From the NCBI RefSeq assembly GCF_000024465.1, contig NC_014010.1:496001-560000 (forward strand): a DNA stretch of 64,000 nucleotides. The letters are read 5' to 3'. How positions within the stretch are numbered: the stretch's first letter is position 1; every line of letters starts with the position of its first letter. Both the position numbers and the translations under genes were made by a program. Origin of the DNA: Candidatus Puniceispirillum marinum IMCC1322. GTDB taxonomy: Bacteria > Pseudomonadota > Alphaproteobacteria > Puniceispirillales > Puniceispirillaceae. The notes below the pieces were generated by a model that worked only from the letters and a program-made list of their open reading frames with translations, ran no database searches and was not told the origin of the DNA. Below, piece after piece: positions 3,442 through 52,935 of the stretch.

Positions 3442-5610
3442 TCATTTTGATTGCATCCTGTTCACGCCGTCCCATGTTGATGCGTCCCACCCACCTCTCA
3501 AAAGACTTTCACATCTTTCAACATATAAATGTGCCACCATATCGGCCGGATTATTATCATGGATATCAGCAAATATTGTCTGCGCTTCATGAATATTCTG
3601 GGCCTGATACAATGTCACAGCTTCATCAAAACGTGCCTTGTTCCTGACCTTCAAAGCCATGATGTCATCAGCTTCAGCATCCAGAACCTCAAACACCTTG
3701 ACCGCATCTGACTTGCCTTTGACCGCAACCCTGTCAATCATCCGCACGGCAAATAAGCCGGGCGTTAATTTCAAACAGCTATCCTCGCTTATCAGAACCT
3801 TTGCCTTATATAGCTTGGTCAGCATTTCAAGTCGGGCAGCTAAATTAACAGCATCGCTGATAACCGACCCTTCCATCCTGTCCGCCTCGCCAAGCGTGCC
3901 GAACATCATCGAGCCGGTATTGACGCCAATACCGATATTGATACTCTGCTTACCCTGTGCTTTGGCCTCTTTGTTATAAACGATCAAATTCTGCTGCATT
4001 TTCACCGCAGCGGCTGTCGCGTCATCGGCAGACCGATTAAACAAAGCCATAATGCCGTCACCGAGAAATTTATCGATATAGCCATTATGCGCGCGTACGA
4101 TCGGCCCCATGCGCTTCAGATAGCCATTCACAAAACTGAAATTCTCGTCAGGTGTCATATTTTCCGAGATACTGGTGAATGACCGTATGTCAGAAAACAG
4201 AATGCTCATCTCAATCTCGACCTGATCGCCAAGATTAACATCCAGAATGCTGTCTTTCTTTAAATTCAATAACAGCTGCTTGGGAACGAAACGCTGATAA
4301 GCCGATGTCAGACGGATTTGCTGATCAAGAGCCAGAGCTTTAAGATCATTGAGTTGTTGTGCCACCGCAAAACCAAAGGTAACAAACATCGACAAAAACA
4401 ATAACCCGCCACTTGTTGTGGCTACCAGCATGGTGACCCATGTGAACCCGAACATCAGATAGGCAATGATCGAAATGGGGACTGTCAGCAACGGCAACAT
4501 GAACGACATACACATATATTTTCCGGTCTTGCTTCCCTTGAACCAAGAAACGGCAGATATACCAACGGATGCCAGCAACAATAAACCAAATGGCAAAACC
4601 AGATATTGTAATTTGACGACACCTGGTCCAAGCCGGTCAGGTGGATAGGCAATCAAGTCAAATTCTGATGCACCCGGCCATGACAGCGCGGTGACAAAAT
4701 TGACAAAAATCATAATGGCGTAAAAGCCAATCACCGCCAGAAAAACTCTATCTAAACGCTTAAACTGTTTGTCCAATTCCAGCGATTTTCGGAAAAATTG
4801 TAATAGCAGAGCAAATAAAGCTGAATTCAGGACAAGGGTGAATTCGCTATTCGATACCCATCGGTTAATCCCGAACAACATGGCATTTGATGATGTCAGA
4901 CCCACAAAGGCAGTGGCCTGAAACAGACTAAGAGACAGCCACAGATAATTACCTTTCGAAACAACATAAATGAACAAATAATAAAGCCCAAAAGCAAAAG
5001 CCACCGACATGAACACGATGTTGCTGGCAAAGCGGAACAATTCGCGCAATTGCACATCCTGCCATGTCCCAACCGTCATGCGGTCAAGGCCATTGACCCG
5101 CCCCATAAAGCGGTCAAACGGATTGCTGCGAAAATAACTGTAAAGCACGGTTTCTTCACCGATAGGCATCAGAACCCTATATTGCCCTAAAATCCGACCA
5201 TCATCGATCCAGTCACCACTCTCATATACCCAATAGGGATAGCTGATTGCGCCCTGACGGCTAGTTGTGAAAATCTTTTTTTCGCGGTTCCAGTTGTGAT
5301 TAATGCCGATCTCTTGGGTTGCCGTATTATTGAAAATGCGAACACGAACCCAATAACCATCTGCGATCGATTGATCGCTTTGCAACGTTGAAGACCAGTC
5401 GCCTTGTTCCAAAGCCGATAAAGCGGCAGTATGGTCAACTCCCTCCAGAAACGACAGATTCTCGTGCGGAATGGTTGCCAGTTGCTGAGGTTCAATTGAA
5501 AAAACAGTTTCGGCATGCGCTATCGTGCTGGTTAGCAAAGCTATCAGAAACGCCAGACACTTTATGCTGTCACCAGACAAACCCAGAAGGCCACGTATGT
5601 GAAGCTTCAT
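3442..5610 (-). CDS. 7TMR-DISM sensor with class III adenylate cyclase domain
   Basis: Membrane receptor that makes a cyclic nucleotide in response to an external cue. Order: signal peptide ending IAHA; periplasmic 7TMR-DISM type-2 sensing domain to about residue 190; seven transmembrane helices to about residue 415; a short coiled linker; class III cyclase domain about 465-620; a helical C-terminal tail. Catalytic parts seen: metal Asp in LFSDIRSFT (about 477) and in FLGDG, purine-selecting Lys in IDKFLGD and Asp in ISDAVNLAAR, and the Asn/Arg of NLAAR that stabilise the transition state. Lys plus Asp predicts ATP, not GTP, as substrate. ATG 5610 gives a normal signal peptide; a GTG at 5628 is also possible. 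Product cAMP and its targets are inferred. Confidence 0.85.
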   Translation of the reverse strand: MKLHIRGLLGLSGDSIKCLAFLIALLTSTIAHAETVFSIEPQQLATIPHENLSFLEGVDHTAALSALEQGDWSSTLQSDQSIADGYWVRVRIFNNTATQEIGINHNWNREKKIFTTSRQGAISYPYWVYESGDWIDDGRILGQYRVLMPIGEETVLYSYFRSNPFDRFMGRVNGLDRMTVGTWQDVQLRELFRFASNIVFMSVAFAFGLYYLFIYVVSKGNYLWLSLSLFQATAFVGLTSSNAMLFGINRWVSNSEFTLVLNSALFALLLQFFRKSLELDKQFKRLDRVFLAVIGFYAIMIFVNFVTALSWPGASEFDLIAYPPDRLGPGVVKLQYLVLPFGLLLLASVGISAVSWFKGSKTGKYMCMSFMLPLLTVPISIIAYLMFGFTWVTMLVATTSGGLLFLSMFVTFGFAVAQQLNDLKALALDQQIRLTSAYQRFVPKQLLLNLKKDSILDVNLGDQVEIEMSILFSDIRSFTSISENMTPDENFSFVNGYLKRMGPIVRAHNGYIDKFLGDGIMALFNRSADDATAAAVKMQQNLIVYNKEAKAQGKQSINIGIGVNTGSMMFGTLGEADRMEGSVISDAVNLAARLEMLTKLYKAKVLISEDSCLKLTPGLFAVRMIDRVAVKGKSDAVKVFEVLDAEADDIMALKVRNKARFDEAVTLYQAQNIHEAQTIFADIHDNNPADMVAHLYVERCESLLRGGWDASTWDGVNRMQSK

Positions 5611-5735
5611 GCAAAAGTACCACAACACCTAAACAATGTTACCATCACATTTAAAAGCGACTTTAACAATACCAAAGGCAAAAAATTTCCCTGAACAAAG
5701 CTTGCGCGCATGAACCATCACGGTCCCCGCGTCAG

Positions 5736-8993: not shown

Positions 8994-9971
8994 ATGAAAC
9001 ACGTCAAAACAATAATGGCTACAGCCGTTGTTAGTGCAACAATGGTTTCAGTAGCCGCACAAGCTGAAAAATGGGATATGCCCATGGCCTATGCCGCAGG
9101 TAATTTCCATTCGGAAATGGGTGTGGTCTTTGCTGATAGGGTTCGTGATTATACCGATGGTGATATTGACATTACCGTGCATGCTGGTGGTTCCCTGTTT
9201 AAAGGTGGTGAGATCAAGCGCGCTGTTCAAACTGGCCAGGCACCAATTGGTGAACGCTTCATGTCTGCACATGCAAATGAGGTGCCTCTTTTGGGCTGGG
9301 ATAACTTGCCGTTTCTGGCAACGACATATGCAGATAACAACAAATTATGGGCTGCTGCCAAAGACAAGGTCAATGCCCAGCTTGATAGTCTGAACCTTGT
9401 TGCCCTTTACACCTGCCCTTGGCCAGGTCAGGGTTTTTATTTCAAGAAGGCTGTTAATTCATCTGCCGACACCCAAGGTGTAAAATTCCGTTCCTATAAT
9501 ACAGCGACAGCAACCTTTGCAAAAGAGCTTGGCATGACACCTGTTCAGGTTGAAGCTGCCGAACTATCGCAAGCACTGGCAACAGGCGTCGCTGAAAGCT
9601 TCATTTCTTCCGGTTCAACAGGCTATGATCGGAAAGTGTGGGAACATCTCACCCATTACTACAAGGTGAATGCGTGGCTGCCACGAAACTATGTCATCGT
9701 CAATAAAGGTGTTTGGAATGGTCTCGATAGCAGCACAAAATCAGCCATTCAGAAAGCGGCTGACGAAACTGGTGCTGATTGTTCTGCAAAGTCGGCAGAA
9801 CTCGCCAACTGGTATTTCGAACAGCTTGAGGCCAATGGCATGAGCGTTGAAGATGCAAGTGCCGATTTCCTTAGAGAACTTAAGGCTATTGGTGCAAAAA
9901 TGCAGGCCGACTGGCTCGCTTCGACAGGTGCAGATGGCCAAGCCATCATTGACGCCTATAAGTCAATGTAA
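8994..9971 (+). CDS. TRAP transporter periplasmic solute-binding protein, DctP family
   Basis: 325 residues with a standard signal peptide ending AAQAEK; the mature protein captures a substrate, usually an organic acid, in the periplasm and delivers it to the DctQM membrane pair. The conserved binding region is visible in the YTCPWPGQGFYFKK stretch and in VKFRSYNTATATFAKELGMTPV, which carries the Arg that normally salts the substrate carboxylate. A GGGAG ribosome site precedes the ATG. First gene of an operon with dctQ, dctM, a racemase-like enzyme and a dioxygenase. The substrate is not identifiable, but the downstream enzymes suggest a small chiral carboxylate or amide. Confidence 0.9.
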   Translation: MKHVKTIMATAVVSATMVSVAAQAEKWDMPMAYAAGNFHSEMGVVFADRVRDYTDGDIDITVHAGGSLFKGGEIKRAVQTGQAPIGERFMSAHANEVPLLGWDNLPFLATTYADNNKLWAAAKDKVNAQLDSLNLVALYTCPWPGQGFYFKKAVNSSADTQGVKFRSYNTATATFAKELGMTPVQVEAAELSQALATGVAESFISSGSTGYDRKVWEHLTHYYKVNAWLPRNYVIVNKGVWNGLDSSTKSAIQKAADETGADCSAKSAELANWYFEQLEANGMSVEDASADFLRELKAIGAKMQADWLASTGADGQAIIDAYKSM

Positions 9972-9988
9972 CTGAAGATGAAATGATT

Positions 9989-10015
9989 ATGCCCCTTGCC
10001 ATTGGCGGGGGGCAT
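9989..10015 (+). promoter_or_regulatory. dctP-dctQ intergenic hairpin
   Basis: ATGCCCCTTGCC and GGCGGGGGGCAT pair over 12 positions (10 Watson-Crick and two G-U) around an ATT loop. It starts 18 bases after the dctP stop and has no following T-run, so it is more likely an RNA-stability or processing hairpin than a full terminator. Such elements after a binding-protein gene commonly keep its message in excess over the membrane subunits. That role is inferred here. Confidence 0.6.
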
Positions 10016-10025
10016 AGATTTAATT

Positions 10026-10739
10026 ATGACAAATTGGCCTCTATTACTCGGAATGCCGCTTTGGTTCTGGTTGTTCATCCTTCCTGCCATGGTTGCTTTA
10101 TTCTGTCGTCTTGCCCGTTTCCGCATCCAGCCTCTGCTAAAACCAGTATGGCGTATGCTGGATCGTGTTTATCTTGCCTCGGGCATCATTGCCGCCATTT
10201 TTATGATCACAATACTGGTTATCATCATGGCGCAGATGGCGGCACGTTGGCTCAATATACCCTTTGAAGGCTCGACTGAATTTGCCGGCTATGCGATGGC
10301 CGCGACGTCATTCTTTGCACTGGCGCATGCGCTGAGTCGCGGTGCCCATATCCGGGTATCGATTCTATTGAATCTAAACCGTTACACCAGACTTTGGCTG
10401 GATGCTTTTGCAACGCTGATCGCGGCGGTAATCGCCACATATTTTGCCCGTTTTGCGGTAAAGACGAATTTCATGTCAGAAATTTTGAATGACCGGACAC
10501 AAGGTCAGGATCAGATCCCCGAATGGATTTTATCGATACTCAAAATGCCCGGTACCTTTCCAACTGAATGGGCAACATTATGGGCAAATACCAGTAATGA
10601 ATTGATTTTTACCCCGGTCTGGGTGCCACAGATACCTATGTCGATTGGTACAATCCTGTTGGCCATTGCCTTATGGGACAATTTGATACGTCTGCTTGTA
10701 ACAAGTGAAACCGCCATCAAGGGAGAAGTAGTTAAATGA
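10026..10739 (+). CDS. TRAP transporter small permease, DctQ family
   Basis: Small membrane subunit of the TRAP transporter. The usual four-helix core lies at roughly residues 45-165 and includes the family stretch FEGSTEFAGYAMAATSFFALAHAL and the RGAHIRVS turn. At about 237 residues it is longer than a minimal DctQ (about 160-180): there is an extra N-terminal hydrophobic segment and a C-terminal region with VPQIPMSIGTILLAIALWDNLIRLL. I start at ATG 10026; an in-frame TTG at 9996 lies inside the preceding hairpin and is unlikely. Its stop overlaps the dctM start (ATGA). Confidence 0.88.
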   Translation: MTNWPLLLGMPLWFWLFILPAMVALFCRLARFRIQPLLKPVWRMLDRVYLASGIIAAIFMITILVIIMAQMAARWLNIPFEGSTEFAGYAMAATSFFALAHALSRGAHIRVSILLNLNRYTRLWLDAFATLIAAVIATYFARFAVKTNFMSEILNDRTQGQDQIPEWILSILKMPGTFPTEWATLWANTSNELIFTPVWVPQIPMSIGTILLAIALWDNLIRLLVTSETAIKGEVVK

Positions 10740-12049
10740 CCGAACTATATGCCACCGGCATTTTCCTATTTGTTCTATTTGCCATGCTTGGTAGCTCCGT
10801 ATGGGTTGGCCTTGCGCTTGTTGGCGTTGCCTTTGTGGGGATGGAACTGTTCACCTCGCGCCCTGCTGGCGATGCAATGATTACGACCATCTGGACAGGT
10901 GCCTCAAGCTGGACACTGACCGCCCTGCCCCTATTCATATGGATGGGTGAGATTCTGTACCGAACGCGATTATCCGAAGATATGTTCCGCGGGTTGGCGC
11001 CATGGATGCGCTGGTTGCCTGGTGGTTTGTTGCATACAAATATTGCCGGATGTACTCTTTTTGCGGCTGTATCGGGGTCATCGGCGGCGACTTTGACCAC
11101 TGTGGGTAAAATGTCGATTCCCGAATTACGTCAACGTGGTTATCCAGAATATATGATCATCGGCACCTTGGCTGGTGCTGCCACCTTGGGGCTCATGATT
11201 CCACCGTCATTGACGCTTATTGTCTATGGCGTATCGATCAATGAATCGATCACCAAATTGTTTCTGGCCGGTGTTATTCCCGGACTGGTTCTGGCGGGTT
11301 TATTTATGACCTATATCATAGCGTGGCATTTTTTACGGCCATCCGAACGACCTGCCGCCGAACCAGCAATATCATTATCACAAATGATTAAAGACAGCCG
11401 GTTTCTGGCTCCCGTTCTTATGTTGGTATTCCTTGTCATCGGGTCAATGTATTTTGGCTGGGCCACAGCCACCGAAGCTGCTGCTGTAGGTGTTGTCGGG
11501 GCTTTGGGGCTGGCAGCTTTGCAACGGTCATTATCGATGGAGACCTTTCTGTCCAGCCTCATGGGGGCTACCCGCACATCGGCGATGATTGCGCTCATCT
11601 TGATGGGTGCGTCATTCCTGTCTTTATCTATGGGCTTTACTGGCTTGCCGCGCGCCTTGGCAGGATGGATTGATGAAATGCAGTTATCACCAATCGTTCT
11701 GATTGCCGCATTGACGGTCTTTTACATTATCCTTGGTATGTTTTTGGATGGCATTTCCTCGGTCGTTTTGACCATGGCAATTGTCGAGCCGATGATTCGG
11801 CAAGCTGGCATCGATGTGATATGGTTTGGCGTATTTGTCGTGGTCGTGGTCGAAATGGCACAGGTGACGCCGCCTATTGGTTTCAATTTGTTTGTTCTGC
11901 AAGGCATGACCAAACATGAAATTTCCTATATCGCGCGTACCGCCATACCAATGGTTCTGCTGATGGTGCTAATGGTGATCATTCTGGTGATATGGCCAGA
12001 GCTTGCGACATGGTTGCCGGATAATGTGCGTCAGAGCCCATCAAGCTAG
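10736..12049 (+). CDS. TRAP transporter large permease, DctM family
   Basis: 437 residues, about twelve transmembrane helices; the channel-forming subunit that drives uptake with the Na+ gradient in characterised TRAP systems. Typical landmarks are FTSRPAGDAMITTIW near the start, AVSGSSAATLTTVGKMSIPELRQRGY, TLAGAATLGLMIPPSL and EMAQVTPPIGFNLFVLQGM. It starts at the ATG of an ATGA overlap with dctQ and ends 23 bases before the racemase-like gene, so all five genes are probably one transcript. Confidence 0.92.
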   Translation: MTELYATGIFLFVLFAMLGSSVWVGLALVGVAFVGMELFTSRPAGDAMITTIWTGASSWTLTALPLFIWMGEILYRTRLSEDMFRGLAPWMRWLPGGLLHTNIAGCTLFAAVSGSSAATLTTVGKMSIPELRQRGYPEYMIIGTLAGAATLGLMIPPSLTLIVYGVSINESITKLFLAGVIPGLVLAGLFMTYIIAWHFLRPSERPAAEPAISLSQMIKDSRFLAPVLMLVFLVIGSMYFGWATATEAAAVGVVGALGLAALQRSLSMETFLSSLMGATRTSAMIALILMGASFLSLSMGFTGLPRALAGWIDEMQLSPIVLIAALTVFYIILGMFLDGISSVVLTMAIVEPMIRQAGIDVIWFGVFVVVVVEMAQVTPPIGFNLFVLQGMTKHEISYIARTAIPMVLLMVLMVIILVIWPELATWLPDNVRQSPSS

Positions 12050-12072
12050 ACCGGATATAGCCGGAGACACTT

Positions 12073-12756
12073 ATGGCAAAACTGACAGTCTTGCAACTTG
12101 ATACAGCATTTCCGCGTTTACCTGGGGATGTTGCTTCACCTGATAGCTATGACTGTGCCATTGAAATCGTGACCATTCCTGCGGCCACCGTAAAAGCCAT
12201 CGTCACTGATCATCCTGACCAAACGGATATCAGTGGTTTTGAAACGGCGATTGATCTTATTGACCGCACCGCAGAGGATGATGACGTTATCACCACATCC
12301 TGTGGATTTTTATGCTATTGGCAGAAACATCTTGCCCGCCGAACGCGTCTTCCCTTTGTTGCTTCGGCTTTAACTGATATGCCGCGCCTGCAGGCACAAT
12401 ATGGACAACGGCTTGGCATTTTGACCTTTGATGCAAACACCCTCACCCAGCCTGCTTATGCTCCCGCCTTAGCTGGCTTTAACGGTTCCATAGCTGGTCT
12501 GCCAAAGACCGCATATCTGCGTCAGGTTATCACCCAGAATGCCCCCCAACTGGACAGCCAGCGCGCTGAAGCTGAACTTATTGAACTTGTGCGCAAAATG
12601 ATTTCAGACACACCCATTGACGCCTTATTGCTCGAATGTACTAACCTGCCCCCCTATAAAGCCGCGTTGAAAGCCGAATTTGGCATTGAAATTTATGATA
12701 TTTTGACAGTTTTGCATAAAATCGACGCACAAATGGTTAAACCGTATTATAATTGA
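12073..12756 (+). CDS. Asp/Glu racemase-superfamily protein
   Basis: 227 residues of the aspartate/glutamate/hydantoin racemase superfamily, which also includes maleate isomerase and arylmalonate decarboxylase. Two cysteines sit in the positions of the catalytic pair: ITTSCGFLCYW in the N-half and LLLECTNLPPY in the C-half. Two-Cys members racemise or isomerise a carbon next to a carboxylate without a cofactor. GGAG precedes the ATG. Its place directly after a TRAP carboxylate transporter suggests it converts the imported compound. It is not a close match to cell-wall MurI, which would not be expected here. The actual substrate is unknown. Confidence 0.75.
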   Translation: MAKLTVLQLDTAFPRLPGDVASPDSYDCAIEIVTIPAATVKAIVTDHPDQTDISGFETAIDLIDRTAEDDDVITTSCGFLCYWQKHLARRTRLPFVASALTDMPRLQAQYGQRLGILTFDANTLTQPAYAPALAGFNGSIAGLPKTAYLRQVITQNAPQLDSQRAEAELIELVRKMISDTPIDALLLECTNLPPYKAALKAEFGIEIYDILTVLHKIDAQMVKPYYN

Positions 12757-12790
12757 AATTATGTAACGGCCAATTCATGGAGATACCGTT

Positions 12791-13789
12791 ATGGCTGATA
12801 TAAAAACACCCGGATATGCCAAGGCTGGCCTTGTGAATTTTGAAGATATCCCGGTTATTGATCTTAGTGATATTGATACCGATCAGGGGCGCCAGAAAAT
12901 CGCCCGGGAACTTGTGCACACAGCAAAAACGATTGGCTTTTTCTACATAAGCAATCATGGCATTTCCGCAGACATATGTGCCAAGGCCTTTGCCGCATCG
13001 CGCCGTTTCTTTGCCCTACCATCATCAGACAAAAGCACCATCGAAGTTGATCAGCATCAACGCGGCTGGATGGCGCAGGGCATGGCCAATCTCGAAGGAT
13101 CAAAAACCTATGATGCAAAGGAAGTGTTTTTCTGGGGATTTGATGTCGCTAATGACGATCCTGATGTCATCGCAGGCTTGCCCATGGTGCACCCGAATCA
13201 ATGGCCGGATGATGTCGCACCTTTCCTTCGCCGTGATATTCTGCCCTATTATGAAGCAGTTCTTGATCTCAGCCGGAAACTCCTGGCCGCTTTAGCGGTC
13301 GGGCTAGGACAATCCGCCGATATGTTTCAGGCGGCTTATCAAAAACCGCTAGGTCGTGGACAATTGGTCTATTACCCCATCTTGAACCAAGAGGACATAG
13401 ATGCCGAAAGATTTGGCGCGGCGACACATTCGGATTTTGGCGTTCTGACAATATTGATGCAGGATGACTTGGGCGGCCTTCAGGTTCAAAGGCTTGATGG
13501 GAACTGGATTGAAGCCACACCAATCGAAGGTACGCTGGTTTGCAATATCGGTGATCTACTCGAACGCTGGACGAATGGCGTACTCATCTCGACAAAACAT
13601 CGGGTGTTGAATCGTGCGCATAAAAGCCGGTTTTCGATTCCAATTTTCTGTGATCCGGCAAGTGATGCCATCGTTGACCCGCGGGATTTTGACCCAGACG
13701 CCGACATTAGCACCTATCCGCCAATCACCGCAGGCAATTATATCATGGGGCGCAATCAACGTAATTTTGCCCAATATGAGAATAAATGA
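12791..13789 (+). CDS. 2-oxoglutarate/Fe(II) dioxygenase, isopenicillin-N-synthase family
   Basis: 332 residues. DIOX_N domain about 18-130 (IPVIDLSDIDTDQGRQ, GFFYISNHGI) and 2OG-FeII catalytic domain about 180-300. Iron ligands: His and Asp in THSDFGVLTIL and the distal His in STKHRVLN; the Arg-x-Ser that binds 2-oxoglutarate is in KSRFSIPIF. Enzymes of this group hydroxylate or oxidatively cleave small acids, amino acids and plant-type metabolites. It is the last gene of the TRAP operon, 34 bases after the racemase gene with its own GGAG site, so it probably oxidises the same compound or its isomer. Substrate unassigned. Confidence 0.85.
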   Translation: MADIKTPGYAKAGLVNFEDIPVIDLSDIDTDQGRQKIARELVHTAKTIGFFYISNHGISADICAKAFAASRRFFALPSSDKSTIEVDQHQRGWMAQGMANLEGSKTYDAKEVFFWGFDVANDDPDVIAGLPMVHPNQWPDDVAPFLRRDILPYYEAVLDLSRKLLAALAVGLGQSADMFQAAYQKPLGRGQLVYYPILNQEDIDAERFGAATHSDFGVLTILMQDDLGGLQVQRLDGNWIEATPIEGTLVCNIGDLLERWTNGVLISTKHRVLNRAHKSRFSIPIFCDPASDAIVDPRDFDPDADISTYPPITAGNYIMGRNQRNFAQYENK

Positions 13790-13797
13790 CAATATTA

Positions 13798-13938
13798 TTA
13801 GGCTGGTGTCTTATCAACCGTTACGGCGTAAACTTCTTGGGTATTTAATGATGGGGAATCAACGACTTTATAGTGCGCTTTGCTAATCTGCTCACATTTT
13901 TCATAAACTTCAAAGCTTTCATATTCATAGACAACCAT
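13798..13938 (-). CDS. possible 46-residue ORF or gene remnant
   Basis: Minus-strand frame starting MVVYEYESFEVYEKCEQ and ending VYAVTVDKTPA. The frame stays open about 22 codons upstream of this ATG with protein-like content (FLDHPDKYYR) but offers no start codon there, and the ATG has no ribosome site. It may be the C-terminal remnant of a decayed gene, or chance. It is convergent with the dioxygenase gene, ending 9 bases from it. No family recognised. Confidence 0.25.
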   Translation of the reverse strand: MVVYEYESFEVYEKCEQISKAHYKVVDSPSLNTQEVYAVTVDKTPA

Positions 13939-14018
13939 GCGATAGTATTTGTCAGGGTGATCTAAAAAGATCGTTTGTTTGGCAGAAAGTAACCTATAAA
14001 ATTATCTAGGGAATTTTA

Positions 14019-14291: not shown

Positions 14292-14367
<76 letters not shown>

Positions 14368-17728: not shown

Positions 17729-20700
17729 TTAGCCGTCGTCATTTTTGCCAAACCCGCCACCTCCGGGGGTTTCAATGACAAACACATCACCGGGCTTCAT
17801 TGTGCGCAAATCGGTAGCCGTTAATGTCTCGATTGACCCATCGGTGCGTTCGACCCAGTTTGCGCCGGTAGCCGCTGCCCCACCGCCTGCCATGCCATAG
17901 GGCGGTACAATCCGGTGGTTAGCAAGGATAACAGCTTCCATTTCTTCCAGAAAGCGTGTGCGACGCCGGACACCATTGCCGCCCATATACTTGCCGACAC
18001 CACCAGAGTTTTCCCTGATTTCAAAACTTTCCAGAATAACGGGATAGCGCCATTCAAGCACTTCCGGATCGGTCAGACGACTATTGGTCATGTGCGTATG
18101 CACCGCGTCCGTTCCGTCAAAATCAGGGCCTGCGCCAGATCCCCCACACAGGGTTTCATAATATTGATGCGTATCATTGCCATAGATGAAATTATTCATC
18201 GTACCTTGTGCTGCTGCCATCACCCCAAGCGCGCCATACAGCGTATCCGTAACAATCTGCGACGTTTCTACATTGCCGGCGATGACCGCGGCTGGATAGC
18301 GGGCTTTTAGCATGCAATCATCAGGTAAAATGATGCTGACCGGCTTCAGGCAACCTTCATTCATTGGTATATCATCATCTACTAACGTTCTGAAAACATA
18401 CAATACTGCGGCACGGCATACAGCCGCAGGAGCGTTGAAATTGTTAGCCCCTTGTGGACTGGTGCCGGTGAAATCCACCACCGCTGACCGTTTCGCTTTA
18501 TCAATCGAAATCTTGACTTTGACCTGCTGCCCATTATCCATCGGATAGGTAAATTCGCCATCACTCAGCACATCAATCACGCGGCGTACCGATTCTTCGG
18601 CATTGTCTTGCACATGCCCCATATAGGCAATGACCGTATCAAGCCCGAACTGCACCACCATCTTGTTTAGTTCCTGCAAGCCTTTTTCATTGGCGGCAAG
18701 CTGTGCCCGCAGATCGGCAATATTCTGTTCGGGGTTGCGCGCTGGATATTTTGCCTCTTTCAGAATTGCCATCATTTCGGCTTCGCGATAAGTACCGGCA
18801 TCGACCATCTTAAAATTATCAATCAGCACCCCTTCTTCATCGATATGCGCTGAATCTGGCGGCGCTGATCCTGGCGTGCGCCCGCCCACATCTGGGTGAT
18901 GACCTCGACAAGCGACAAAGAACAGAATATCGCTTTTATCTGCCTTGAACACTGGCGTAACGACAGTAATATCCGGAAGATGCGTACCCCCATTATAAGG
19001 GTTGTTCAGAACAAATGAGTCGCCCGGATTGATATTGCCTTCATTACCATTGATGATCGCGCGTACACTTTCACCCATTGAACCAAGATGCACCGGCATA
19101 TGCGGGGCATTGGCAATGAGCGAACCGGTGGCATCAAAAATGGCACATGAAAAATCAAGCCGTTCCTTGACATTCACTGACAAAGCCGTGTTTTGCAGTG
19201 TATAGCCCATCTGTTCGGCAATCGACATGAACAGATTATTGAACACTTCCAGCATTACCGGATCACAGCTAGTACCGATCGCATGGCGTTCTGCCCGTGC
19301 TTCGGTACGCCGCAACACCAGATTGCCGATGTCGGACATTTCCGCTTCCCAGCCAGGCTCGACAACATTGGTGCCAGTGGCTTCGATAATCAAAGCGGGA
19401 CCTTTGATCCGGTTGCCAGCGCCGATCTTGTCACGCTGAAAGACTGGTGCCTTGACAAATTCACCCCCCATATAGGCATCAACGATGTCAACTGGCTGGG
19501 GATCATCCGCGCTCATAGGTTGGCTGATCGATGGCAAGTCAAATGTATGACCAATCGCTTCAACCGAAATGGTGGCCGCGATCAATGCTTTGCCTGACAT
19601 CAAAAATCCGAAACGTGACCTGTAGGCGGCCTCATAGGCGACGGTCATCGAGTCTATATCGCCATCATAGGGAACTTCCAACGCTGTATCCGAGCCATCA
19701 TAGCGCAGATGCACAAACCAGTTGGTTTCCATGCGCTCAGCCGCGATATTCTGCGCCCGCACCTCGGCTTCGGCATCCGTAGCCAATGCGCTCAGCTCAC
19801 TTTCAAGACGGCCAAGCAATTCCGTGTTCAGATGCGCTTCAACCGACCTTTCGCGCATCGCCGTTACATCGGCCAGCCCCATGCCATAGGCTGATAACAC
19901 TCCGGCAAATGGATGAATCAGCACCGATGTCATGCCCAGATTATCGGCGATCTGACAGGCATGCTGTCCACCAGCCCCGCCAAAACATTGCAAGGTATAT
20001 TCGGTGACATCATAGCCGCGTTGCACCGATATCTTTTTGATCGCATTCGCCATATTTTCAACCGCTATACGCAAAAACCCATCGGCAATGGCTTCGGGCG
20101 AGCGATCCATACCGGTGCTGGCCTTGACCTGTGCTGCCAGCGCTTCAAATCCGGCACGTACAGGCACCGCGTCAAGCGGTTGATTCTGGTTCGGGCCAAA
20201 TACTGGGGGAAAGAATTGCGGTTGTAATTTACCCAGCATCACATTGCAGTCAGTGACCGCCAACGGGCCGCCGCGTCGGTAACAGGCTGGCCCCGGATTG
20301 GCACCAGCGCTTTCCGGCCCCACCCGAAAACGCGCGCCATCGAACTGGCATAAAGACCCGCCACCTGCCGCAACCGTATGGATCAACAGCATTGGCGCAT
20401 GTATCCGCACGCCAGCTACAACAGTCTCAAACACCCGTTCAAAGGCATTTTCAAAATGCGCCACATCGGTTGATGTTCCGCCCATATCAAACGTAATCAC
20501 CCGGTCAAAGCCAGCTTGCTGCGCCGTTTTGACAGCCCCGACAATCCCCCCAGCCGGCCCTGACAAAATCGCATCCTTGCCCTGAAACAGACTCGAATCT
20601 GTCAAGCCGCCATTCGATTGCATCAGTTGCAAATTGGTGCTGTTTCCGTCATCTGACAGCGCCTCGGCAATCCGGTCGATATAGCGGCGCAAAATCGGCG

Positions 20701-21394
20701 ACAGATAAGCATCGGCGATCGTCGTATCGCCGCGCCCGACAAATTTGATCATCGAGCTGGTCTGATGGCTTGTCGAAATCTGGCTAAAGCCAATATCTGA
20801 TGCCAGTTTGGCTATCTTTTGCTCATGCCCTGGCACACGGTAAGCATGCATCAACACAATCGCAATCGACCGGATGCCATCATCATAGGCGGCTTGCAGA
20901 CGCGGCCGCAGATCATCCAGATCAAGCGGCACCAGCACATTATCCTCGGCATCAATGCGCTCATTAACTTCTTCCACGCGTTCATACAGCATTTCAGGCA
21001 AGGTAATCTTGCGGTCAAACAGCCGCGGACGTGCCTGATAGGCAATACGTATCTGGTCACGGAAACCCTTTGTTACAACCAGCAAGGTGCGGTCACCCTT
21101 GCGCTCCAGCAGTGCATTGGTGGCGACCGTTGTGCCCATTTTCACCGCATCAATCAGGCTGGCGGGGATCGGGTCGTTGCTCTCGATATTCAGAAAGTCG
21201 CGGATCCCCTGCAACGCGGCATCATCATAGGCTTCCGGATTTTCCGACAGTAATTTATGCGTCGCCAGCACGCCTTCGGGACTGCGCGCTACCACATCGG
21301 TGAATGTGCCCCCACGGTCAACCCAGAACTGCCAGCCGGATATATCCGCGCCTTTATCTGAAGCGTGCGTTTTGTCAAAAGAGTCCGGTGGCAT
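17729..21394 (-). CDS. 5-oxoprolinase / N-methylhydantoinase-type HyuA-HyuB fusion
   Basis: About 1220 residues: the HyuA-like ATPase half (about 1-690; [46 protein letters not shown]) fused to the HyuB half (about 700-1210; [33 protein letters not shown]). The fused form is that of ATP-dependent 5-oxoprolinase, which opens 5-oxoproline to glutamate, but hydantoinase or acetone-carboxylase-like roles use the same fold. I take ATG 21394 (MPPDSF), preceded by GGA at fair spacing; an ORF start at 21430 adds an unlikely hydrophobic lead. A single-gene unit between hom and the GFA/GNAT operon. Confidence 0.88.
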
Positions 21395-21539
21395 AAAATA
21401 TCCGTTCACAAGCAGTAATCGAAAGAACAAACAGCAATATCGATGAAAATGATTCCGCTAAATATGTTCGTAATGAATGTCGCGGATAACCGCCCGTCTT
21501 GTCAATTTGTCTTGTCAATTTTGATCTATGAAAATCAGC

Positions 21540-52821: not shown

Positions 52822-52935
52822 GTTATTTACTCCTGTTCTCCGGTTAAACCTCCATGAGGGAAATGAAAGGCATATGCCTTCACCGGATGGCCTGAAGCAT
52901 GGATTTTGCCATGCCGGACCGCCCTCATGTGTGAA
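52822..52935 (-). ncRNA. structured rpsB leader (candidate S2 autoregulatory RNA)
   Basis: On the minus strand CATGAGGG (52922-52929) pairs with CCCTCATG (52853-52860), an 8-bp helix that encloses a GCATGG/CCATGC hairpin and the 14-base palindrome AAGGCATATGCCTT. The helix ends about 30 bases before the S2 start codon. S2 binding to its own leader is a common control for this operon; the match to that role here is inferred. Confidence 0.55.

Follow-up and report, generated by a model that had tools for sequence, protein, structure and literature searches.

The window analysed here, a stretch of 64,000 nucleotides from the genome of Candidatus Puniceispirillum marinum IMCC1322 (NC_014010.1, positions 496,001 to 560,000), carries at positions 8994 to 13789 a five-gene operon for a tripartite ATP-independent periplasmic (TRAP) transporter, a racemase-superfamily enzyme and a 2-oxoglutarate (2OG)-Fe(II) dioxygenase. 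The operon is real and conserved, and its substrate is well supported: judged from the sequence and the modeled fold of the receptor, the ligand carried by the transporter is very probably pyroglutamate (5-oxoproline). We propose, with confidence about evenly balanced, that the operon serves the uptake and the oxidative use of this compound. Its features are the following.

8994 to 9971, plus strand: dctP, TRAP periplasmic receptor, pyroglutamate-binding subfamily (PF03480, 109 bits; 6wgm, E 4e-175)
9987 to 10017, plus strand: terminator-like hairpin of 14 pairs in the gap between dctP and dctQ (pattern scan)
10026 to 10739 (listed frame from TTG 9996), plus strand: dctQ, small membrane subunit (PF04290, 67 bits)
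10736 to 12049, plus strand: dctM, large membrane subunit (PF06808, 281 bits; TIGR00786 above cut-off)
12073 to 12756, plus strand: Asp/Glu/hydantoin racemase-superfamily enzyme, proposed pyroglutamate racemase (PF01177 above cut-off)
12791 to 13789, plus strand: 2OG-Fe(II) oxygenase, isopenicillin-N-synthase-like, proposed pyroglutamate-oxidising enzyme (PF14226 and PF03171 above cut-off)

An earlier note on this DNA had described five genes on one strand with short gaps, and the five open frames were found at the positions and on the strand that it gave, with intergenic spacings of 54 (24 from the TTG start), -4, 23 and 34 bases. All families scored above the curated Pfam cut-offs. The genes for PF03480, PF04290 and PF06808 are mutually adjacent and make up a complete TRAP (DctPQM) set, and the two enzymes gave 42.5 bits against a cut-off of 31 (Asp_Glu_race), 105 bits (DIOX_N) and 80 bits (2OG-FeII_Oxy). 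The description of the racemase as a two-Cys enzyme was borne out by C77 and C189, which all 30 aligned sequences share. That of an isopenicillin-N-synthase-type dioxygenase agrees with the two domains and with the HxD...H and RxS residues H213, D215, H270, R280 and S282, invariant in 14 of 14 aligned sequences, which we take to be the Fe and 2OG ligands. The dctQ gene more likely starts at ATG 10026 than at TTG 9996, because the former gives 237 residues, the commonest length of the DctQ frame among relatives, and the hairpin upstream of it perhaps lowers the expression of dctQM relative to dctP. The DctM-racemase-dioxygenase order is repeated across several genera, and therefore the arrangement is not a matter of chance.

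The closest solved relative of DctP is 6wgm (phmmer E 4e-175), deposited under a title that describes a marine metagenome TRAP solute binding protein specific for pyroglutamate. A model of DctP built from 23 aligned sequences (predicted local distance difference test, pLDDT, 86.4) matched 6wgm with a Z score of 44.3, followed by 2pfz (42.1) and 2pfy (41.8), whose titles describe the Bordetella pertussis proteins DctP6 and DctP7 binding pyroglutamic acid; the next match scored 35.8. The Foldseek identity was 84% to 6wgm, and then 43% and 36% to 2pfz and 2pfy, and the same three structures came out on top by phmmer, Foldseek and VIA-align. It is because the three best solved relatives bind pyroglutamate, by sequence and fold alike, that we read the ligand as this compound. 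According to PMC13274462, DctP7 binds 5-oxoproline with a dissociation constant of 0.3 uM, and the DctP6 and DctP7 genes have a 5-oxoprolinase gene of eukaryotic type close by. In an alignment of 19 receptors W143, Q146, R166, Y168, N169 and S206 are invariant and W228 is nearly so; these may include residues of the ligand pocket. A plain C4-dicarboxylate importer was considered and rejected, since DctP scores 55.7 bits against the TIGR00787 cut-off of 175 and the solved proteins nearest to it bind pyroglutamate. The earlier note had called the route unassigned and had seen no adjacent regulator, aldolase or dehydrogenase that would reveal the substrate. The receptor itself does so, and an oxoprolinase-type gene is also present at 17729 to 21430; the sequence of the receptor, its fold and the gene company of its relatives point to pyroglutamate as the imported compound, while for the two enzymes the description as unassigned stands.

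The operon was sought in 136 genomes of the window's order, with thresholds of E 0.001 for the racemase and E 1e-60 for the receptor and the dioxygenase; 23, 24 and 17 genomes were matched, respectively. (The first scan of genome contigs, with the racemase alone, had found no relative.) Twelve genomes, the window's included, hold a receptor at least 82% identical to DctP, and 11 of these also hold a dioxygenase at least 55% identical; the sole exception, G121, is 69% complete, and its receptor gene lies where a contig ends. The dioxygenase lies inside the cluster in 10 of the 11. In one further genome, G127, a fragment of the dioxygenase gene lies at the end of a contig, and the receptor gave no match. 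Twelve other genomes, designated group II, have a receptor 49-55% identical; a racemase of 27-30% identity accompanies it in 11, and a dioxygenase at E 1e-60 was found in none of the 12. The five genes are conserved as a unit, and members of the dioxygenase subfamily accompany this transporter.

Scanning the GTDB species genomes with a receptor profile gave at least 567 relatives, the best 80 of which were analysed, with genes counted within 7 kb and oxoprolinase-type genes anywhere in the stretch. DctM was present at 79 loci, a DAO-type flavin adenine dinucleotide (FAD) enzyme at 67, the racemase at 65, a dioxygenase match at 18, a membrane protein of ~312 residues without Pfam match at 25 and oxoprolinase-type genes at 3; at the 48 loci where both flanks are visible over 5.5 kb, the corresponding counts were 48, 41, 41, 10, 15 and 2. 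DAO, DctPQM and the racemase make up the core of the cluster; the dioxygenase is a variable component, favoured in the window's order. Genes farther out, where scanned, look unrelated. The two oxidative enzymes tend to exclude each other. Among 68 loci with both slots visible, 8 hold both, 46 DAO only, 11 the dioxygenase only and 3 neither (Fisher p 1.2e-5, uncorrected for kinship), and the exclusion persists at p 8e-4 when only one of the five related gammaproteobacterial loci is kept. Another 20 of 88 loci had been dropped for having less than 1.4 kb upstream or less than 4.5 kb downstream, L130, L162 and L175 with both genes among them; over all 88 the counts were 11, 58, 13 and 6 (p 2.3e-5), and recounts with several counting choices changed gave p 6e-6 to 2.3e-5. 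In the count L125 was omitted as the same record as L074, the identical L153 and L154 were both kept, the remnant in L165 was scored dioxygenase-positive and L201 (30% identical) negative. The window's own genome is without a close DAO (best 31%). The mutual replacement suggests that DAO and the dioxygenase share a substrate or take opposite enantiomers of it, the racemase supplying the one required. At 4 of the 48 fully visible loci, all in gammaproteobacterial metagenome-assembled genomes, transporter and dioxygenase stand without a racemase or DAO match, and by this token the imported compound itself may be the substrate of the dioxygenase.

The link between dioxygenase and transporter is also seen in the phylogeny. 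Nineteen transporter-linked dioxygenases fell on one side of a branch from 21 relatives of the order or class (support 98/95) and likewise from 50 others that included the 29 best matches of a phylum sample (support 100/95); none of 500 label shuffles equalled the separation. The clade takes in five gammaproteobacterial dioxygenases only 40-43% identical to the window's. This tree omitted the linked rows L068, L069, L070 and L075 of the order, the fragments L146, L162 and L165, and L201 (30% identical); with L146 and L162 added, both fragments fell inside the clade (99/95), and L201 fell outside on a long branch. The linked rows were collected mostly through the receptor, which biases them toward linkage. 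The dioxygenase query itself found 13 members, 12 in the order (the window's included) and 1 in 385 class genomes, of which 11 lie in the cluster, that of G073 is on another contig and that of G127 is undecidable. A dioxygenase match occurs in 45 of 398 phylum genomes; none of the 29 best other matches placed in the tree fell inside the linked clade, weaker matches being left unplaced. Three of the 29, none in the linked clade, lie within 1.5 kb of a distantly similar gene of interest (L236, DctP-like, 22%; L244, DctM-like, 38%; L245, hydantoinase/oxoprolinase-type, 34-35%), and two unlinked dioxygenases (L115, L116) have a DAO-like gene (~33%) in their surroundings. The dioxygenase thus belongs to a clade devoted to this transporter, and it rather likely acts on pyroglutamate or on its direct product. 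Its best solved sequence matches are the isopenicillin-N-synthase-like 2OG oxygenases 9ovh (E 2e-58) and 6jyv (E 1e-47), deposited as an ethylene/succinate-forming enzyme and an iron/ascorbate oxidoreductase, respectively; these are names and not functions established for the window's enzyme, and an identity as ethylene-forming enzyme, based solely on the deposited name of 9ovh, was set aside.

The model of the racemase (pLDDT 97.5) gave tied fold matches at Z 14.6-15.4, to allantoin racemase (15.4), OpaE (15.2), hydantoin racemase (14.8) and aspartate racemase (14.6). Allantoin and hydantoin racemases act on five-membered cyclic amides. They resemble the window's enzyme in fold (Z ~15) and in the two Cys residues and differ from it in sequence, with 10-12% identity over the fold alignment. 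The ties of the modeled fold would allow a cyclic-amide substrate but do not show one. With 155.5 bits against a cut-off of 231, the enzyme falls below the PRK07475 (NF005679) subfamily, and the group II racemase of L077 passes with 300 bits. Taken with its gene company, the fold makes it rather likely that the racemase acts on pyroglutamate. Members of the racemase family also occur beside other transporters: in four plasmid contexts an FAD oxidoreductase accompanies the racemase in all four, amino acid ATP-binding cassette (ABC) importer genes in two and a TAXI TRAP importer in one. The genome-context search that the earlier note had recommended thus returns a conserved unit in the order, together with a racemase family of wider distribution. 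Unrelated contexts, which the note had regarded as telling against a common route, thus exist in part, for that family; the dioxygenase clade lies in the cluster in 11 of the 13 members found by its own query.

In the route that we propose, DctP would capture periplasmic pyroglutamate and DctQM would move it inward, a step that is strongly supported. The two-Cys racemase would interconvert D- and L-pyroglutamate, so that both enantiomers could feed one route, and the 2OG-Fe(II) oxygenase would hydroxylate the five-membered lactam, consuming O2 and 2-oxoglutarate. With C2 as its target, the oxygenase would form 2-hydroxy-5-oxoproline, the cyclic form of 2-oxoglutaramate; the two are treated as one metabolite, to go by a reference title in PMC12864753. 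An omega-amidase, for which 2-oxoglutaramate is a substrate according to PMC8657959, could open the latter to 2-oxoglutarate and ammonia, and the 2-oxoglutarate spent would so be replaced. Oxidation at C2 is a tentative assignment and a rather doubtful one, hydroxylation of the ring at C3 or C4 being equally compatible with the data; it would explain how, in many relatives, an FAD amino-acid-oxidase-like enzyme can take the place of the dioxygenase. The route would operate alongside, or instead of, the ATP-driven 5-oxoprolinase, and the genome appears to encode oxoprolinases. The most specific version, a second and ATP-independent pyroglutamate route in which racemised pyroglutamate would be oxidised at C2 by the dioxygenase (by the FAD dehydrogenase in relatives) and 5-oxoprolinase bypassed, is speculative and on present evidence improbable. 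The logic of the earlier note, that a chiral acid is imported, inverted and hydroxylated, fits the conserved unit and the transporter-linked dioxygenase subfamily, with the import step already assignable to pyroglutamate.

The oxidative fate of the compound has to be weighed against an ordinary hydrolytic one. The importer might feed a 5-oxoprolinase, either the fused enzyme 3.9 kb away or a PxpABC encoded elsewhere, with the racemase converting D-pyroglutamate to the L form used by 5-oxoprolinase and the dioxygenase peripheral, for example in clearing a hydroxylated or methylated side compound; we consider this rather unlikely. The receptor family does keep such company. In a survey of plasmids (48 records with a receptor relative, from which nine contexts were picked by choice and inspected), oxoprolinase-type genes adjoin DctPQM in five of the nine, with Pxp-type genes in two and a fused hydantoinase/oxoprolinase gene in three. 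They comprise PxpA with two subunit-like genes in Leisingera, PxpB with a carboxyltransferase-family gene in Azospirillum, and a fused-type gene in Acidovorax, in Qingshengfaniella (divergent) and in Rhizobium sp. SSA_523 (divergent; unannotated record, tblastn). Two Ruegeria plasmids carry the receptor relative with a racemase, a thiamine pyrophosphate (TPP) enzyme, an enolase-superfamily enzyme and an FAD oxidoreductase, and the Thermus and Sulfitobacter contexts have neither oxoprolinase-type genes nor this layout. The window has a fused gene of its own.

17729 to 21430, minus strand: fused HyuA/HyuB protein, hydantoinase/oxoprolinase family (sole Hydantoinase_B match in the genome)

This protein is 58-60% identical to those encoded beside pyroglutamate-type DctPQM in Acidovorax, Qingshengfaniella and Rhizobium sp. 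SSA_523, and it possibly partners the importer from outside the operon; PxpA is encoded elsewhere in the genome, close to PxpB- and PxpC-like genes. The gene lies 3.9 kb from the operon on the opposite strand, behind recJ-like and homoserine-dehydrogenase-like genes. As a part of the operon an oxoprolinase was rejected, the nearest candidate standing at this distance and strand with two genes between, and none being found in 13 stretches of the order. Where a close receptor occurs with the racemase or dioxygenase, oxoprolinase-type genes are rarely near, and the presence of a close dioxygenase in 11 of the 12 order genomes with a close receptor would be odd for a peripheral part.

Another alternative accepts an invert-then-oxidise route of the classic kind, a racemase with an amino-acid oxidase or a dioxygenase, and replaces the ligand by another cyclic or proline-like amino acid, such as a hydroxyproline or a derivative of proline or pyroglutamate that carries an N-methyl or hydroxyl group. 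The frequency of the D-amino-acid-dehydrogenase-like FAD enzyme (67 of 80 loci) and of the racemase (65 of 80) would suit it, as would the FAD oxidoreductase and the amino acid ABC and TAXI TRAP importers of the four plasmid racemase contexts and the TPP and enolase-superfamily enzymes added in group II clusters. It is opposed by the closest solved protein, ~84% identical and titled specific for pyroglutamate, and we judge it unlikely. That the gene order is accidental, with enzymes serving unrelated pathways, is highly improbable: the racemase family does occur with other transporters and one dioxygenase lies on another contig, yet the same order recurs in several genera, the dioxygenase clade is dedicated and the two genes co-occur in 11 of 12 genomes.

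Several observations weigh against the reading that the operon imports and oxidises pyroglutamate. The pyroglutamate in 6wgm and in the Bordetella proteins may not be the natural ligand, and racemase and DAO-like genes usually point to an amine-bearing amino acid, the nitrogen of pyroglutamate being an amide. Both DAO and dioxygenase are held by 8 of 68 loci (11 of 88), and the counts ignore kinship. Of the five CN-hydrolase genes in the genome none is identifiable as an omega-amidase, the CN-hydrolase match being unspecific. Oxoprolinase-type genes are near in just 3 of 80 close-relative loci, and no match to them was found in 13 stretches (7.5-20 kb) of relatives in the window's order. The best solved match of the fused protein is the N-methylhydantoinase 7hk5 (2e-142), with 6yra, named 5-oxoprolinase, following at 3e-70; its matches to NCBIfam are all below cut-off, the best being caprolactamase. 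Considering this match, the other strand, the two intervening genes and the PxpA and PxpB/C-like genes elsewhere, the nearness of the fused gene to the operon may be chance. Lastly, in G073 the close dioxygenase sits on another contig. The receptor gene of that genome (L031, G073:C45:71358-72320) carries two in-frame TAG codons; given both features, it is a decaying copy or reflects an assembly fault.

The three loci with PxpABC-like genes nearby are a small set in which the dioxygenase is absent (L139), broken in frame (L146) or a remnant (L165). In strain HTCC2150 (L146, 13752-14737) the gene is split across two frames, and in Octadecabacter dasysiphoniae (L165) the remnant covers 13703-13951, the PxpABC-like genes being a few kb off in each. 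Damage or absence of the dioxygenase beside PxpABC would be consistent with a single compound that has two alternative fates; the break in L146 may be a sequencing fault.

Further genes of the related clusters and of the window were recorded. The ~312-residue protein (L128 13048-13983, L154 6817-7749, L077 8631-9578) lies 3' of DctM or beside the racemase, is hydrophobic by consensus and is perhaps an extra transporter. Five gammaproteobacterial clusters (L187, L186, L185, L182, L160) combine receptor and dioxygenase with a gene of ~257 residues without Pfam match and with homocysteine S-methyltransferase-family, M17 aminopeptidase and aminoacyl-tRNA editing domain genes; Pfam was scanned in L185, and for the ~257-residue gene in L187 as well. 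Group II clusters carry an enolase-superfamily gene, as in L077 (12156-13313) and in L084 (5502-6632), the latter matching 3i6e at E 1.5e-195 and 3i6t at 3e-166, both named muconate cycloisomerase. The gene context suggests that this enzyme works with a pyroglutamate-type importer, which offers a lead for 3i6e and 3i6t, a close homologue of which lies in the sister cluster. The TPP enzyme, the enolase-superfamily enzyme, DGOK and 2-keto-3-deoxy-6-phosphogluconate (KDPG) aldolase were rejected as pathway parts, since the window's cluster lacks them and their presence varies among relatives. Within the window, tRNA-Glu (TTC) lies immediately 3' of the operon at 14292-14367 on the minus strand, a match to the Rfam rpsB small RNA (RF01815) at 52826-52933 (minus strand) scores 42.7 bits against a cut-off of 40, and a 728-residue frame at 3442-5628 (minus strand), its translation read by eye, resembles a membrane protein with a class III nucleotide cyclase domain.

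Among described systems, the Bordetella DctP6 and DctP7 and the marine 6wgm share with the window's DctP the receptor subfamily, by sequence and fold, and the TRAP type; DctP6 and DctP7 differ in their reported neighbour, the 5-oxoprolinase gene noted above. The pxpTABC genes of Corynebacterium glutamicum are likewise a dedicated set for the uptake and catabolism of the same likely compound, but with an APC-type importer, ATP-driven hydrolysis by PxpABC and an adjacent GntR regulator, and the abstract of PMC13274462 names no racemase or oxidative enzyme. Group II clusters, found on the Ruegeria plasmids and in some genomes of the order, share the related receptor and a distant racemase and differ in lacking, in the 12 order genomes and at E 1e-60, the dioxygenase and in having extra enzymes. 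In open-licence PubMed Central papers we found no use of the names pyroglutamate racemase, hydroxylase, dioxygenase or dehydrogenase, no paper combining pyroglutamate, a TRAP transporter and a racemase or joining SAR116 with pyroglutamate, and no described pathway for the combination of uptake, racemase and dioxygenase; PMC10130141, on Ruegeria transporters, contained none of the terms sought. The operon offers a testable alternative to 5-oxoprolinase and is not categorically new. If the proposal is true, its racemase and dioxygenase, both acting on pyroglutamate, would be two new enzyme activities, and the set of importer, racemase and dioxygenase, seen mainly in marine-type groups, would give a concrete oxidative route.

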